DNA from: a virus | Length of the DNA: 23,435 nucleotides | IMG/VR virus record: IMGVR_UViG_3300025889_000974 | Coordinates: 1 to 23,435 of that record | Reading direction: 5' to 3' (one strand) | Shown here: in pieces, positions 9,821-14,458 of the stretch | How positions within the stretch are numbered: the first letter of the stretch is position 1 | How the letters are laid out: each line of letters opens with the position of its first letter | The notes under the pieces: generated by a model | Seen by the model: only the letters and a program-made list of their open reading frames with translations | Database searches by the model: none | What the model was told of the DNA's origin: nothing | Translations under genes and position numbers: made by a program

Positions 9821-10312
9821 ATGGCTCGTAAACGGATAAAACGATACGATGATGGTGGCGAGATTATCGTCACTGGTAAGCGCGAAAACGAAGTCATGCC
9901 ATTTGAGGGGCTATCCCGGGAGCGCATGATGCGTGCTGCTGCTTCGGGTGCTGATGCAGGTGGCGGAGGCGGAAGCGGCATCGGGATTATGGGTAACGCT
10001 CGTAATCAGCTTGGTGTTGGTAAGACCTATTCCCCTGTCGGTAAAGTTTATGGCCCGCGCTACACTGGCGACGGCTTCAGCGTGAGCGGTGGATATAACC
10101 CCAAGAGCAAAGTTGTCGGCGGACGTTACCAAGAAGAAGGCTTTTCTGCTGGTTTGGGCTATGATCCGCGCCGTAAATATGTCGGTGGCGATGTGTCGTT
10201 CAGCTTCAAAAAGGGCGGCAACGCCAAGAAAATGGCTAAGGGCGGCTCAACGGCCTCCAAGCGCGCTGATGGCATCGCCCAAAAGGGCAAAACGAAAGGG
10301 CGCATGGTCTAA
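9821..10312 (+). CDS. basic protein with tandem beta repeats and C-terminal KGKT box
   Basis: 163 residues, starting at the ATG one base after the glycosyltransferase stop; an in-frame ATG 66 bases upstream lies inside that gene. Residues 42-58 are a Gly-rich linker. Residues 80-101 and 102-123 are a perfect-length 22-residue tandem repeat, RY-x3-GFS-x3-GY-x-P-x2-K-x-VGG, with alternating strand character. The C-terminus (138-163) is MAKGGSTASKRADGIAQKGK followed by TKGRMV, a box shared with the genes at 10820 and 11500. It is strongly basic. Function is unknown; a virion or DNA-associated role is inferred from the cluster. Confidence 0.75.
   Translation: MARKRIKRYDDGGEIIVTGKRENEVMPFEGLSRERMMRAAASGADAGGGGGSGIGIMGNARNQLGVGKTYSPVGKVYGPRYTGDGFSVSGGYNPKSKVVGGRYQEEGFSAGLGYDPRRKYVGGDVSFSFKKGGNAKKMAKGGSTASKRADGIAQKGKTKGRMV
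10058..10189 (+). repeat. 66-base tandem repeat, two copies, in coding sequence
   Basis: Two adjacent 66-base units (10058-10123 and 10124-10189) encode two 22-residue repeats of the gene starting at 9821. The protein pattern is well kept (R, Y, G, F, S, G, Y, P, K, V, G, G at matching sites) while the bases have diverged, so the duplication is old and selected at the protein level. Confidence 0.7.
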
Positions 10313-10572
10313 TGGCTAAGTCTCCTGCTTGGACTCGTAAAGAGGGCAAAAATCCCACTGGTGGGCTGAATGCTAAAGGTCGTGCCTCGGCCAAAAAGCA
10401 GGGGATGAACCTGAAGCCCCCCGTATCAGCTAAGCAAGCCAAAAAGTCTCCCAAGGCGGCTGCGCGGCGCAAGTCATTTTGCGCCCGCATGTCCGGGATG
10501 CCGGGCCCGATGAAGGACGAGAAGGGTCGGCCAACGCGCAAGGCCCTCTCGCTGCGTAAGTGGGACTGCTAG
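10312..10572 (+). CDS. small basic conserved phage protein (possibly DUF6321)
   Basis: 86 residues, coupled by TAATG. About 24 are Lys/Arg and only 4 Asp/Glu. Conserved blocks are AWTRKEGKNPTGGLNAKGRA (6-25), GMNLKPP (31-37) and KSFCARMSGMPGPMKDEKGR followed by PTRKALSLRKW. I recognise this pattern from many phage genomes and associate it with the family named DUF6321; that name is from memory and unverified. No catalytic motif is visible. The charge suggests nucleic-acid binding or a place inside the capsid, which is inference. Confidence 0.8.
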   Translation: MAKSPAWTRKEGKNPTGGLNAKGRASAKKQGMNLKPPVSAKQAKKSPKAAARRKSFCARMSGMPGPMKDEKGRPTRKALSLRKWDC

Positions 10573-10573
10573 G

Positions 10574-10816
10574 ATGGAGATGCTGGTATGGAACATCATT
10601 CTCAGTGGGATCGTTGCGGTGCTTGGCTTCATGGTGAAGGGTAAGTTCGATGAACTCGACCGTCTTGGCATCTTGCTCAACAAAACCCGGGAAGAGGTGG
10701 CGCGTGACCACGTCACACGTGCGGAAGTCAATCAAACGCTCGATAAACTCGCAGAGCGCATCGACAAGAGCATCCAACGCTTGGAAGCCAAGCTGGATGA
10801 TATGAGGAAAGGCTGA
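10574..10816 (+). CDS. small membrane-anchored coiled-coil protein
   Basis: 80 residues. Residues ~4-21 (LVWNIILSGIVAVLGFMV) form one hydrophobic segment at the N-terminus, followed by Lys and a coiled coil (25-78) with regular heptads. The start may be the ATG at 10574 or the one at 10580, the latter having AGGA at better spacing. The layout (one N-terminal membrane helix, helical outer part) resembles short inner-membrane spanins or holin-associated proteins, but it is shorter than usual spanins and no partner lipoprotein is seen. A virion or ejection-related membrane protein is equally possible. Confidence 0.7.
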   Translation: MEMLVWNIILSGIVAVLGFMVKGKFDELDRLGILLNKTREEVARDHVTRAEVNQTLDKLAERIDKSIQRLEAKLDDMRKG

Positions 10817-10819
10817 GAA

Positions 10820-11500
10820 ATGATTAGCTCAAAGAAACTTGGCCGCATGGTCACCGCCGATGTCGATAAGGCGTTGGCGAACATTGGCTCTGCGAAGCCG
10901 GAGATGAAGGACACAGGGGAACTGAAAGCTGCCGTCGCGCCCAAGAAGGCTGAGACGTTTGCTGAAGCGTTCCGTGCTGCTCGCAAGGAAGGCAAAAAGA
11001 CTTTTTCATGGGCTGGTAAGCCGGGTACGACGTTTACCACTGATATGGCTGGTGAAGGCGCGAAGCGTCGGGCATCTACTCGTTCCTCGGGCTCTAAAAC
11101 TGGTAGTGGTTCATCTTCAACTTCTAGCTCGCCGGTTGCGGACTTTTACACCAGCCAATACTCAAAAGTTAAAGGTAACGCAGCGAACATTCAGGGCGCT
11201 GGGCCTATGGCTACGGGTAAAAATAACGATAAGTCGTCCGATAAATCGGTGGCTAAACTCGGATCGCCAGTAAATGCGGGTCGTTCAAAAGGGTTTTTGT
11301 CGCGGCTTTTTACGAAAAGCGCAGATTCAGATTTTGCTAAATCCCAAGAACGGAAATACGGCAAGCGCACTCCGCTTCTTCTTGTTGGTGAAGAAGCCCG
11401 TGAAGCCAATCGCAAGCAAGGCACTATTGGTGGCAAAGCCAAGGGCGGTAAGATCGACGGTTGCGCCGTTCGCGGCAAGACCCGTGCAGGGCGTAAATAA
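10820..11500 (+). CDS. modular basic protein with two conserved phage peptide boxes
   Basis: 226 residues. Residues 45-76 hold the box ETFAEAFRAARKEGKKTFSW continuing GKPGTTFTTDM, an amphipathic helix plus beta-hairpin that I recognise as recurring in small phage proteins. Residues ~86-104 are a Ser/Thr-rich linker. The C-terminus (208-226) is KGGKIDGCAVRGKTRAGRK, the DG-x-A-x-x-GKT box also seen in the genes at 9821 and 11500. There is no membrane segment, signal peptide or enzyme motif. The protein looks like short modules on flexible linkers. Function is unknown; the stop overlaps the next start (TAATG). Confidence 0.8.
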   Translation: MISSKKLGRMVTADVDKALANIGSAKPEMKDTGELKAAVAPKKAETFAEAFRAARKEGKKTFSWAGKPGTTFTTDMAGEGAKRRASTRSSGSKTGSGSSSTSSSPVADFYTSQYSKVKGNAANIQGAGPMATGKNNDKSSDKSVAKLGSPVNAGRSKGFLSRLFTKSADSDFAKSQERKYGKRTPLLLVGEEAREANRKQGTIGGKAKGGKIDGCAVRGKTRAGRK

Positions 11501-13170: not shown

Positions 13171-13878
13171 GTGACGACATCCGGCACCTCAACATTCAAC
13201 CTTAACCTGAATGAACTGTTTGAAGAAGCCTTCGAGCGGTGTGGTGCCGAGATGCGCACGGGCTATGACTTTCGCACAGCACGGCGTAGCCTTAACTTAC
13301 TGACAATCGAGTGGGCCAATAAGGGCATTAACCTCTGGACGCTTGAGCAAGGCACAATTGCCATGGTGCAAGGGCAGATCACGTATAACTTGCCGGTGGA
13401 CACCATCGACCTGTTTGACCACGTGATCCGTACGCAGACGGGCCAAGCGCAGACGGACATCAATATCAACCGCATTAGCGCGGATACCTACCTCACGATC
13501 CCGAACAAAAATGCTCAAGGGCGACCTATTCAGGTATGGATTAACCGCCAATCGGGTGCGCAAAACCCAGCAAGTATCCAGTATCCGACGATTAACGTGT
13601 GGCCTGCTCCGGATCAGAACAACTACTACACTTTCGTGTATTTTCGCCTCCGCCGTATTCAGGACGCGGGAACCGGTGTGACGACGCAGGACATCCCGTT
13701 CCGTATGCTGCCGCCGCTTGTAGCTGGCTTGGCTTATTACTTGTCGCTCAAAATCCCCGGTGCGACTGAACGCTCTGCAATGCTGAAAGCGATGTATGAC
13801 GAGGCTTGGCAGCAGGCTTCGGACGAAGACCGTGAAAAGGCACCGTTGCGCTTAGCGCCACGGCAGATGTTCTACTAA
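13171..13878 (+). CDS. head-tail adaptor-like neck protein
   Basis: 235 residues from a GTG directly after the previous stop, preceded by GGGAAGAAG. The N-terminal helices (NELFEEAFERCGAEMRTGYD, FRTARRSLNLLTIEWANKGI) and the beta part (VQGQITYNLPVDTIDLFDHV) match the helical-bundle-plus-strands pattern of podovirus neck adaptors (P22 gp4 / SU10 adaptor-like). FRLRRIQDAG and PLVAGLAYYLSLKIPG form the later part. Adaptors seal the portal after packaging and carry the tail. The family name is inferred from pattern and position, and a T7 gp11-like role is an alternative. Confidence 0.75.
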   Translation: MTTSGTSTFNLNLNELFEEAFERCGAEMRTGYDFRTARRSLNLLTIEWANKGINLWTLEQGTIAMVQGQITYNLPVDTIDLFDHVIRTQTGQAQTDININRISADTYLTIPNKNAQGRPIQVWINRQSGAQNPASIQYPTINVWPAPDQNNYYTFVYFRLRRIQDAGTGVTTQDIPFRMLPPLVAGLAYYLSLKIPGATERSAMLKAMYDEAWQQASDEDREKAPLRLAPRQMFY

Positions 13879-13887
13879 GGAGGGGCC

Positions 13888-14328
13888 GTGCCTAACAGGT
13901 TCGCCTCTGGTAAATATGCGATCTCCCAGTGTGATCGCTGTGGCTTTCGGTACAAGCTGAAAGAGTTGAAGTCGCTCGTCATCAAGACAAAGAACATCAA
14001 CATCCTCGTTTGCCCCACTTGCTGGGAACCAGATCAGCCGCAGCTTCAACTGGGTATGTACCCGGTTGATGACCCACAGGCTATTCGCAATCCACGTCCT
14101 GATACGACCTACTGGCAGGCTGGTTTGACGGGTATTCGCACGCAACCAAACACGCTCCCAACCGAGGATGTAGACGCTTTTGGCACCCCGTCTGGAGGTA
14201 GCCGTGTTATCCATTGGGGCTGGGACCCAGTGGGCTTTCAAAATCCCTTGGGTTTATGGGGTCTTCCTGATACATTAGTAGCCAATGGTCAGGTTGGTAC
14301 GGTAACTATTCAGACGACGGAGAACTAA
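13888..14328 (+). CDS. zinc-ribbon protein of the neck region
   Basis: 146 residues from a GTG with a strong site (AAGGAGGGG). C15-x2-C18 (CDRC) and C42-x2-C45 (CPTC) form a four-Cys zinc ribbon with KLKELKSLVIKTKNINILV between. The C-terminal half is Gly/Pro/Thr-rich with IHWGWDPVGFQNPLGLWGLP and ends in a strand. No enzyme motif is seen. Genes of this type recur between adaptor genes in environmental podoviruses. A small structural protein whose metal site stabilises the fold is likely; DNA contact is possible. Confidence 0.8.
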   Translation: MPNRFASGKYAISQCDRCGFRYKLKELKSLVIKTKNINILVCPTCWEPDQPQLQLGMYPVDDPQAIRNPRPDTTYWQAGLTGIRTQPNTLPTEDVDAFGTPSGGSRVIHWGWDPVGFQNPLGLWGLPDTLVANGQVGTVTIQTTEN

Positions 14329-14329
14329 T

Positions 14330-14458
14330 ATGGCTAAGGGCGGCAAGACTAACGAGCAGATGTTGAAGCTCGGACGCAACCTCGCCAAGGTGGCGAACCA
14401 GCAGCGCGAAGTGCGCAAGGTCCAGAAGGACATGGGGAAGGTCAACAAGAATGGCTGA
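14330..14458 (+). CDS. 42-aa basic helical protein
   Basis: A short frame starting MAKGGKTNEQMLKLGRNLAK and ending KVNKNG. It begins one base after the zinc-ribbon stop and overlaps the next start by 8 bases. It is a single Lys/Arg/Gln-rich helix and begins with the AKGG box found in five genes upstream. Coding is supported by filling the gap exactly with coupled ends on both sides. Function unknown. Confidence 0.65.
   Translation: MAKGGKTNEQMLKLGRNLAKVANQQREVRKVQKDMGKVNKNG

Follow-up and report, generated by a model that had tools for sequence, protein, structure and literature searches.

A recurring, mostly C-terminal peptide on unlike small basic phage proteins as a possible address label for the phage head

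In phage T4, a motif on the internal proteins drives their packaging into virions, the proteins are injected with the genome, and one of them, IPI, is reported to inhibit a restriction system (PMC9391042, PMC5694885). The T4 capsid-targeting sequence is described as an N-terminal propeptide of 10-20 residues that is removed by the prohead protease (PMC5694885). Phage polyvalent proteins, modular chains that hold many domains each, are thought to be packaged and delivered with the DNA (PMC5512222). The subject here is a window of 23,435 bases, which is the whole of the virus record IMGVR_UViG_3300025889_000974, and in it a cluster of small basic genes whose products share A(K)KGG boxes and, in three cases, a longer tag with the core DG-x-A-x-x-GKT. 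The same peptide on unlike, fast-changing proteins beside the shell genes looks like an address label for loading the particle, and the reading put forward below, at a chance that we place a little short of even, is that the tag may be a docking peptide by which cargo enters the head in the manner of the T4 capsid-targeting sequence.

The preliminary description of the window had listed six genes with an A(K)KGG box, had assigned KGG...DG-x-A-x-x-GKT to three of them, and had called most of the products far richer in Lys and Arg than in Asp and Glu. All of this is borne out: each of the six genes holds its box, the longer motif is found in exactly three (9821, 10820 and 11500), and the surplus of Lys and Arg over Asp and Glu is 8 to 46 across the six. 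In order along the window they are:

9821..10312, plus strand: tagged protein 1, 163 residues, net charge +17; C-terminal tag at 10235-10309, reading AKGG...RADGIAQKGKTKGRMV, its box (MAKGG) with AKGG at 10235, near the C-terminus
10820..11500, plus strand: tagged protein 2, 226 residues, net charge +26; C-terminal tag at 11438-11497, reading AKGGKIDGCAVRGKTRAGRK, its box (KAKGG) with AKGG at 11438
11500..12363, plus strand: tagged protein 3, 287 residues, net charge +46; N-terminal module at 11500-11625 and tag at 12205-12276 (YAKGG at 12205), reading AKGG...ADGVAKKGKTDTKMV, then 28 residues
12363..12641, plus strand: phrog_17747 protein with an AKGG box (YAKGG) at 12462, flanking the tagged island
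12889..13170, plus strand: small basic protein with an AKKGG box, 93 residues, net charge +23 (KKGG of YAKKGG at 12976), with relatives in several locus maps
14330..14458, plus strand: MAKGGKTN... protein, 42 residues, with its box as the initiator MAKGG at 14330

The core stands 5 residues before the end in both the 9821 protein (DGIAQKGKT) and the 10820 protein (DGCAVRGKT), and 33 residues before the end in the 11500 protein (DGVAKKGKT). The 9821 stop codon ends on the base with which the next start codon opens. A six-frame scan of the window for [AK]KGG or DG.A..GKT gave no match on the minus strand. The preliminary description had named composition-matched random proteins as the test for the boxes, and shuffling within each protein fails to reproduce them: over 20,000 rounds on the ten proteins of the island area, A(K)KGG is present in 6 of 10 proteins against a shuffled mean of 0.35 and a maximum of 4, and DG.A..GKT in 3 proteins against 0.0007 per round. 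Its proposal that the six genes form one functional set stands in part, in that they share a module on different proteins and lie as one set in the head module, but the full tag is found in three only and the other three have the GG box alone.

Relatives were collected as 279 loci, at least 80 by capsid similarity, at least 79 more by the 12357 gene, at least 115 by the tag pattern and 5 as genome contigs; since the loci were selected and the viral-contig sets are the matches listed, the numbers given here are not frequencies in nature. With a core slightly looser than that of the window (DG.[ACS]..G[KH]T), the tag was found in 556 open reading frames (ORFs), of which 512 are distinct, or 510 once two loci discussed below (L282 and L284) are dropped. 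Within the first 159 loci and their 15,690 ORFs, the core occurs 262 times, always on the plus strand, whereas reversed proteins give 0 and shuffled plus-strand ORFs 0.15 on average. A GG doublet lies at most 16 residues upstream of the core in 469 of the 510 distinct tagged ORFs. Among 516 core matches, the distance from the C-terminus is at most 7 residues in 343, 8-24 in 131, 25-60 in 38 and greater in 4, and an N-terminal tag is recognised by motif in 15 ORFs only. The consensus drawn from the 184 cargo clusters with an end-tagged member (cargo being the tagged protein minus its tag) reads SAS[KS]RADG[IC]Ax[RK]GKT[RK]G[KR][MIF][VC]. Its D, G, A, G, K and T are fixed or nearly so by the search pattern itself, while conservation that the search did not impose is seen at Arg -2 (0.88), Ser -4 (0.84), Ala -1 and -5 (0.78) and for Lys or Arg at positions +5, +9 and +11 (0.92-0.99, with 0.92 at +11). 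Four of the 512 distinct ORFs have a double tag near the C-terminus of a single protein (L039:9855-11108 and L263:2903-4087 are such cases).

The tagged proteins otherwise differ, as the preliminary description had held. BLAST clustering of the 472 tagged proteins with at least 35 cargo residues gave 214 clusters (165 singletons, the largest of 108), and in 184 of these loosely defined clusters a member ends in the one tag; the clusters come from BLAST of low-complexity chains with a coverage rule, which does not prove unrelatedness, and ORFs were opened at the first possible start codon, so that some cargo has a false N-terminal extension. The median net charge per residue is +0.10 for whole tagged proteins and +0.06 for the cargo, with 10.6% of the 472 cargos at or below zero; the median hydrophobic fraction of the cargo is 0.22 versus 0.30 for the capsid protein, and 70% of its residues are disorder-promoting. 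A scan of 137 of the 214 cluster representatives (those with cargo of at least 85 residues) against Pfam, PHROGs and NCBIfam found no common family; the solid matches are to DUF6321 (1) and the phiKZ165.1 module (2), and the rest are weak single matches, among them one to a tape-measure profile with an expectation value (E) of 0.006. In the window, the 9821 and 10820 proteins have no match in these three databases at E 0.1, and the 11500 protein has matches in PHROGs alone, confined to its first 58 residues at most. Enzyme cargo was considered and rejected, no such solid family match being present among the 137 representatives. A likeness of one cargo family to ADP-ribosyltransferases was considered; Pfam gives nothing for it, its model has a predicted local distance difference test score (pLDDT) of 39, and no claim is made. 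In another phage lineage, an 825-residue protein encoded after TerL (L317:1309-3786) contains a tagged-cargo domain, untagged, and has three GG[VL]AHMA[DE]GG boxes between its parts.

Whether the tag is kept as peptide or as DNA can be read from its codons. When the cores of tags within one contig are compared, fourfold silent sites differ in 337 of 566 comparisons (0.595); the corresponding value is 0.60 between contigs, and 0.70-0.74 is expected from free codon use. Amino acids of the core differ in 7 of 858 comparisons, a value that is low by construction: the search itself largely dictates the core sequence, and the information lies in the silent sites. As the silent sites are nearly saturated, selection acts on the peptide and not on a DNA repeat. 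For the glycine two places after GKT, 71% of C-terminal tags use GGA or GGG versus 9% of internal ones, internal tags retaining that glycine in 142 of 169 cases without the codon preference, and an ATG overlaps the end of 175 of 313 C-terminal tags; the end of a tagged gene thus also is the ribosome-binding site for the next gene.

The preliminary description had further proposed to place the boxes relative to the capsid and neck genes, and this count puts a tagged island between the capsid and adaptor genes. Placement against landmark genes was possible for 548 of the 556 tagged ORFs, and every one of the 548 has the same strand as the landmarks. Of these, 18 are found beyond the first adaptor gene; the remaining 530 comprise 378 flanked by landmarks on both sides and others that end at a contig edge. 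The 20 records of 45-70 kb contain 57 tags; each record has its tags on a single strand and within a span that never exceeds 2,742 bases, 18 of the 20 have at least two, and the reversed control pattern is matched nowhere. Since it was loci already fetched that led to these records, the presence of tags in 20 of 20 is partly selection, which their confinement is not. Tagged genes number 0 to 6 per contig, with 1 to 6 in 106 and at least 2 in 84 of 107 contigs in a length-filtered count. DUF6321 is found in all 20 long tagged records, and an LPD38 polyvalent-type protein in 14 of them as well as in the isolate Pag-Yong1.

Within this island, cargo is replaced much faster than the genes around it. 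Cargo was counted as shared if the shorter chain was matched at 40% identity or more. In 100 contigs that differ in capsid DNA, and with phiKZ-module proteins excluded, 22% of cargo is shared at a capsid identity of at least 97% (38 pairs with data), 8% at 93-97% (86 pairs) and 3% at 90-93% (284 pairs), while in the same bands five flanking genes are kept in 71-100% of pairs and the first adaptor gene in 72-100%. The contigs partly overlap, and the reduction from 107 to 100 removed identical capsid-gene DNA, not all near-duplicates; an earlier run that kept the phiKZ-module proteins and the duplicates gave 40%, 17% and 8%. In the 36 pairs of comparable cargo, drawn from 274 proteins, the median ratio of nonsynonymous to synonymous substitution rates (dN/dS) is 0.21 and no pair is above 1, the capsid protein being at 0.08. 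A ratio below 1 together with low sharing indicates cargo that is constrained while present and often replaced.

The tag is found in an isolate as well. In Planktothrix phage Pag-Yong1, a 308-residue protein (UMO75986.1) encoded between the capsid and adaptor genes ends in SGYAKGGAVKRERYASGGMIGRDGCAKRGRTKGRFI, a diverged tag with GRT replacing GKT that was recognised by eye after the phage had been found through the capsid search. The fetched stretches of the capsid relatives HTVC023P, CRP-901, DSL-LC04, QDWS535 and Caulobacter phage RW, and those of HMO-2011 and MEP402, whose relation is through small basic genes, lack DG.[ACS]..G[KH]T, a pattern that copies as diverged as that of Pag-Yong1 would escape in other isolates too. 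A tblastn search with one tag stretch against phages gave no match, for which the low-complexity filter is perhaps responsible. The records of Pag-Yong1, MinM2 and Pra-JY27 (noted for L285 and L293, OL906435.1) all have 65,014 bases and different deposited cyanobacterial hosts. The G+C content of Pag-Yong1 is 68-69%, which we take to be high for a Planktothrix phage, so that the true host may be another bacterium of the culture.

A prophage or a host gene was also considered as the origin of the tag; a pattern scan of 257 billion bases of bacterial and archaeal genomes returned five stretches. Three contigs from bacterial bins (L280, L281 and L283) have a window-like order of DUF6321, tagged genes, p17747-like gene and adaptor, and may be integrated or stray phage contigs. 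L282, an ORF without any other island feature and with the motif 81 residues from its end, was dropped as a chance match; L284 (162-2003), a probable assembly chimera in a genome bin, was dropped from later counts. In L284, a frame that gives an acyltransferase-like impression (unsearched) continues in frame into the phage tag.

The gene order of the window is terminase, portal, GroES-like protein, putative scaffold, capsid, two small proteins, a weak glycosyltransferase match and then the island of small basic genes, downstream of which lie adaptor-like proteins and then tail genes. The landmarks and the untagged genes of the island are:

7282..8193, plus strand: major capsid protein, phrog_371 (E 4.8e-25), the landmark upstream of the island
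10312..10572, plus strand: DUF6321 protein, 86 residues, untagged in the window, PF19846 (E 7.4e-26)
12638..12892, plus strand: phrog_14910 small basic protein, a conserved island flank without box, its start codon set manually to a GTG overlapping the preceding stop
13171..13878, plus strand: adaptor-like protein closing the island, phrog_12985, a family without assigned function

The capsid protein additionally matches profiles named for head proteases, and the 13171 protein resembles, by eye, a DSL-LC04 protein annotated as adaptor ('Pam1 adaptor protein'). A search of solved structures by sequence gave no match for the capsid protein, the 14618 protein or the 11500 protein, and for the 8343 protein weak coat-protein matches alone (E 0.024-0.028). 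In the related loci, 0 of 163 ORFs that match a motif of the 12363 protein are tagged. The GroES-like co-chaperonin lies at 4725-5159 (phrog_3188, E 9.1e-11), and in each of the six capsid relatives with fetched regions a gene annotated as GroES likewise precedes that of the capsid protein. Directly before a tail-fibre gene, 16071-16433 matches phrog_858, 'starvation-inducible transcriptional regulator' (E 1.3e-13). The record is probably a fragment, because a reading frame of 1,274 residues runs past its end; this frame, at 19612-23433 and thus at least 1,274 residues long, is repetitive and tail-fibre or adhesin-like in appearance.

Module swapping is seen in three families of the window. 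The 11500 protein matches phrog_16759 over residues 1-42 (E 7.3e-20); this family makes up, with phrog_22033 and phrog_25121, the PHROGs of the phiKZ165.1 / CBB_322 module. Two PHROGs families with the annotation virion structural protein are also matched by the module, at their starts. By tblastn (E up to 0.1) it is found in 124 phage records, many of them of jumbo phages and including phiKZ (phiKZ165.1), CBB, GAP32 and 201phi2-1, at 41-89% identity in the best 60 of the 124; in small phages such as BUCT555, it is a separate 52-residue gene right after the large gene following TerL. CBB_322, which begins with the module, is reported from virions by mass spectrometry with 30 unique peptides and 43.57% coverage (PMC5259590), and 6 peptides are reported from virions for phAPEC6 gp161c, of 28.98 kDa (PMC7247149). 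Judged by size and gene order only, the latter probably corresponds to slurp01 00565 (29.07 kDa, module at the start). The module motif occurs in 73 ORFs of the loci, 42 of which are also tagged. A model of one such module-plus-tag relative shows a three-helix module (block pLDDT 74, 89, 90 and 79) and an unstructured tag, modelled with low confidence there. Compared with folds in the PDB, this model has no significant match, helix-turn-helix proteins being best at E 4.1; of 47 matches in a viral fold library, 3 are within E 0.001, and the twelve best, phage proteins that are nearly all uncharacterised, align over the module.

The DUF6321 protein of the window reaches 91 bits, above the Pfam gathering cut-off of 28.5. 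A DUF6321-like domain with a C-terminal tag is present in 8 ORFs of relatives (cluster C4), and DUF6321 is C-terminal on the 'structural protein' gp060 of the T4-like cyanophage S-P4. The cyanophage cluster T4-GC119 is termed hypothetical protein, and the main text of that source holds no virion evidence for it (PMC3037559). The core of the 14330 protein, GGKTNxxMxxxGRNxAKxxNQ, was found by motif in 119 distinct ORFs, whose N-termini carry AKGG (38), HE..MH with AKGG (33), HE..MH alone (15), the ADG..GKT tag (14) or no box of these kinds as defined here (19, some of which look like diverged tags). These N-termini are the clearest sign of interchangeable box modules and join the AKGG-only to the tagged genes.

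As a docking system, the locus would work as follows. The C-terminal stretch AKGG-x(5-9)-[RS]ADG-x-A-x-[KR]GKT-[KR]-G-[KR]-hydrophobic-V would be a short unstructured docking tag, and the cargo would be many small, mostly basic, probably disordered proteins loaded during assembly. Four elements of this scheme are observations, which would take these places in it: one peptide on many unlike proteins, its maintenance by amino-acid selection and not as a DNA repeat, the same-strand island between capsid and adaptor genes, from which late expression with the head genes may be presumed, and the rapid replacement of cargo while tag and neighbours stay. The tag would then bind a common head component, be it the inner capsid, the portal or adaptor, or the packaged DNA, and the cargo would be packaged, injected and act early, for example against host defences, by analogy with the T4 internal proteins. 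The AKGG-only genes 12363, 12889 and 14330 would belong to the same set with a shorter box. The preliminary description had thought of internal head proteins, an idea that gains indirect support in that the 11500 protein starts with the module of CBB_322 and the cargo turns over fast. A wider proposal, which we regard as doubtful, is a mostly C-terminal 'zip code' in a large group of uncultured phages, rare in bacterial genomes, that would load one to six swappable head effectors as a rapidly evolving early-infection toolkit, probably for counter-defence, separate from the polyvalent protein.

Several points weigh against the docking reading and call for caution. What was detected in virions is a protein of a distant phage with one N-terminal module (CBB_322) that is linked to the window by sequence likeness, and the head partner of the tag is one that we infer. 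None of the 137 scanned cargos convincingly matches an enzyme, head or anti-defence family in Pfam, PHROGs or NCBIfam, and the AlphaFold model of one tagged cargo family is too poor to use (pLDDT 39). With 173 of 516 cores more than 7 residues from the end, a free C-terminus is not strictly required, and the lack of a match in the fetched stretches of HTVC023P, CRP-901, DSL-LC04 and QDWS535 indicates that the capsid type needs no tag. Conservation at the very end of the tag may be due in part to translation. With the tag region drawn wide (from 14 residues upstream as far as the end, for tags at every position, so that variable flanks and internal tags are included), the pooled ratio of nonsynonymous to synonymous differences (pN/pS) is 0.45 and thus exceeds that of the cargo (0.30), whereas in a narrow one (-6 to two past GKT) it is 0.16 versus 0.37, so that this result depends on the limits chosen for the tag.

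The main rival, though itself unlikely, is that the basic, disordered tag and cargo condense the packaged DNA, the tag being the DNA-binding part and the cargo drifting freely. The positive median charge of both whole proteins and cargo, the hydrophobic-poor and disorder-promoting composition of the cargo and the richness of the tag in Lys, Arg and Gly would all be expected of such proteins. The tag, however, is more exact than charge needs, with the uncharged Ser -4 and Ala -1 kept, and comparable cargo is under purifying selection according to its dN/dS and not neutral filler; nor do the helix-turn-helix fold matches of the N-terminal module lend support, given that they are not significant. 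An improbable alternative, suggested by the adjacency of the island to the adaptor genes and by the tag-capable 14330 family between two adaptor-type genes, is that the tagged proteins are assembly factors that bind portal or adaptor transiently, as chaperones or head-completion plugs, and are not retained in virions. Such factors should be conserved together with the adaptor, yet the cargo is replaced where the first adaptor gene stays, and the 107 contigs differ in how many tagged genes they have (0 to 6). It is quite improbable that the proteins serve host takeover or counter-defence in the cell in which they are made, with a tag that binds a host factor and an incidental position near the head genes; the confinement to one island of at most 2.8 kb beside the head genes in 20 of 20 long records and the fusion of the tag with a module that begins a virion protein speak against it, even if fast cargo turnover would agree with an arms race, and positive charge with DNA or RNA as targets. 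It is barely credible that the tag is a mobile DNA repeat, or a sequence for translation coupling, that merely chances to be translated where genes end, for although tags mostly sit at gene ends, with last codons that resemble ribosome-binding sites and often an overlapping ATG, the near-randomised silent sites within one genome led to rejection of the repeat, internal tags keep the peptide without ribosome-site codons, N-terminal copies exist, and every placed copy is on the landmark strand.

If the docking reading is true, a pattern of about 20 residues would pick out predicted internal or injected proteins from a large class of unknown phage proteins, and under the 'zip code' proposal hundreds of unknown injected proteins would be recognisable from sequence by the tag alone. 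It would also explain the many unlike small basic genes in the capsid-adaptor gap of these phages, offer a testable system for the choice of head cargo and the evolution of injected proteins, and, with a mostly C-terminal tag, depart from the T4 model.

Compared with the described systems, the tag is like the T4 capsid-targeting sequence of IPI, IPII, IPIII and Alt in being a short portable peptide across different cargo, and, as in T4, one peptide is shared by several proteins of one genome, here three window genes. Unlike the N-terminal T4 sequence, it is mostly C-terminal (343 of 516 cores within 7 residues of the end), and inspection revealed no relation between the two in sequence. The likeness to polyvalent proteins lies in modularity and in the tagged-cargo domain that is also part of the 825-residue protein of another phage; the difference is that the pieces here are separate small proteins with a common tag, the six boxed window proteins having 42-287 residues and no LPD or ART-type Pfam domain, and the large LPD38 proteins of relatives are separate genes. 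With phiKZ165.1 and CBB_322 the locus shares the N-terminal module of the 11500 protein, while these two, GAP32_317 and three other printed module relatives have no ADG..GKT tag, and with the DUF6321 family it shares the 10312 protein as a member. A titles-level search of the open-licence literature found no description of the tag and no paper on Pag-Yong1, phiKZ gp165.1 or DUF6321 with phage. The statement of the preliminary description that no system of this kind is described thus holds for the tag, within the open-licence literature and Pfam, PHROGs and NCBIfam. Taken together, the proposed head-loading mechanism would resemble established kinds, namely the T4 capsid-targeting sequence and the polyvalent proteins.

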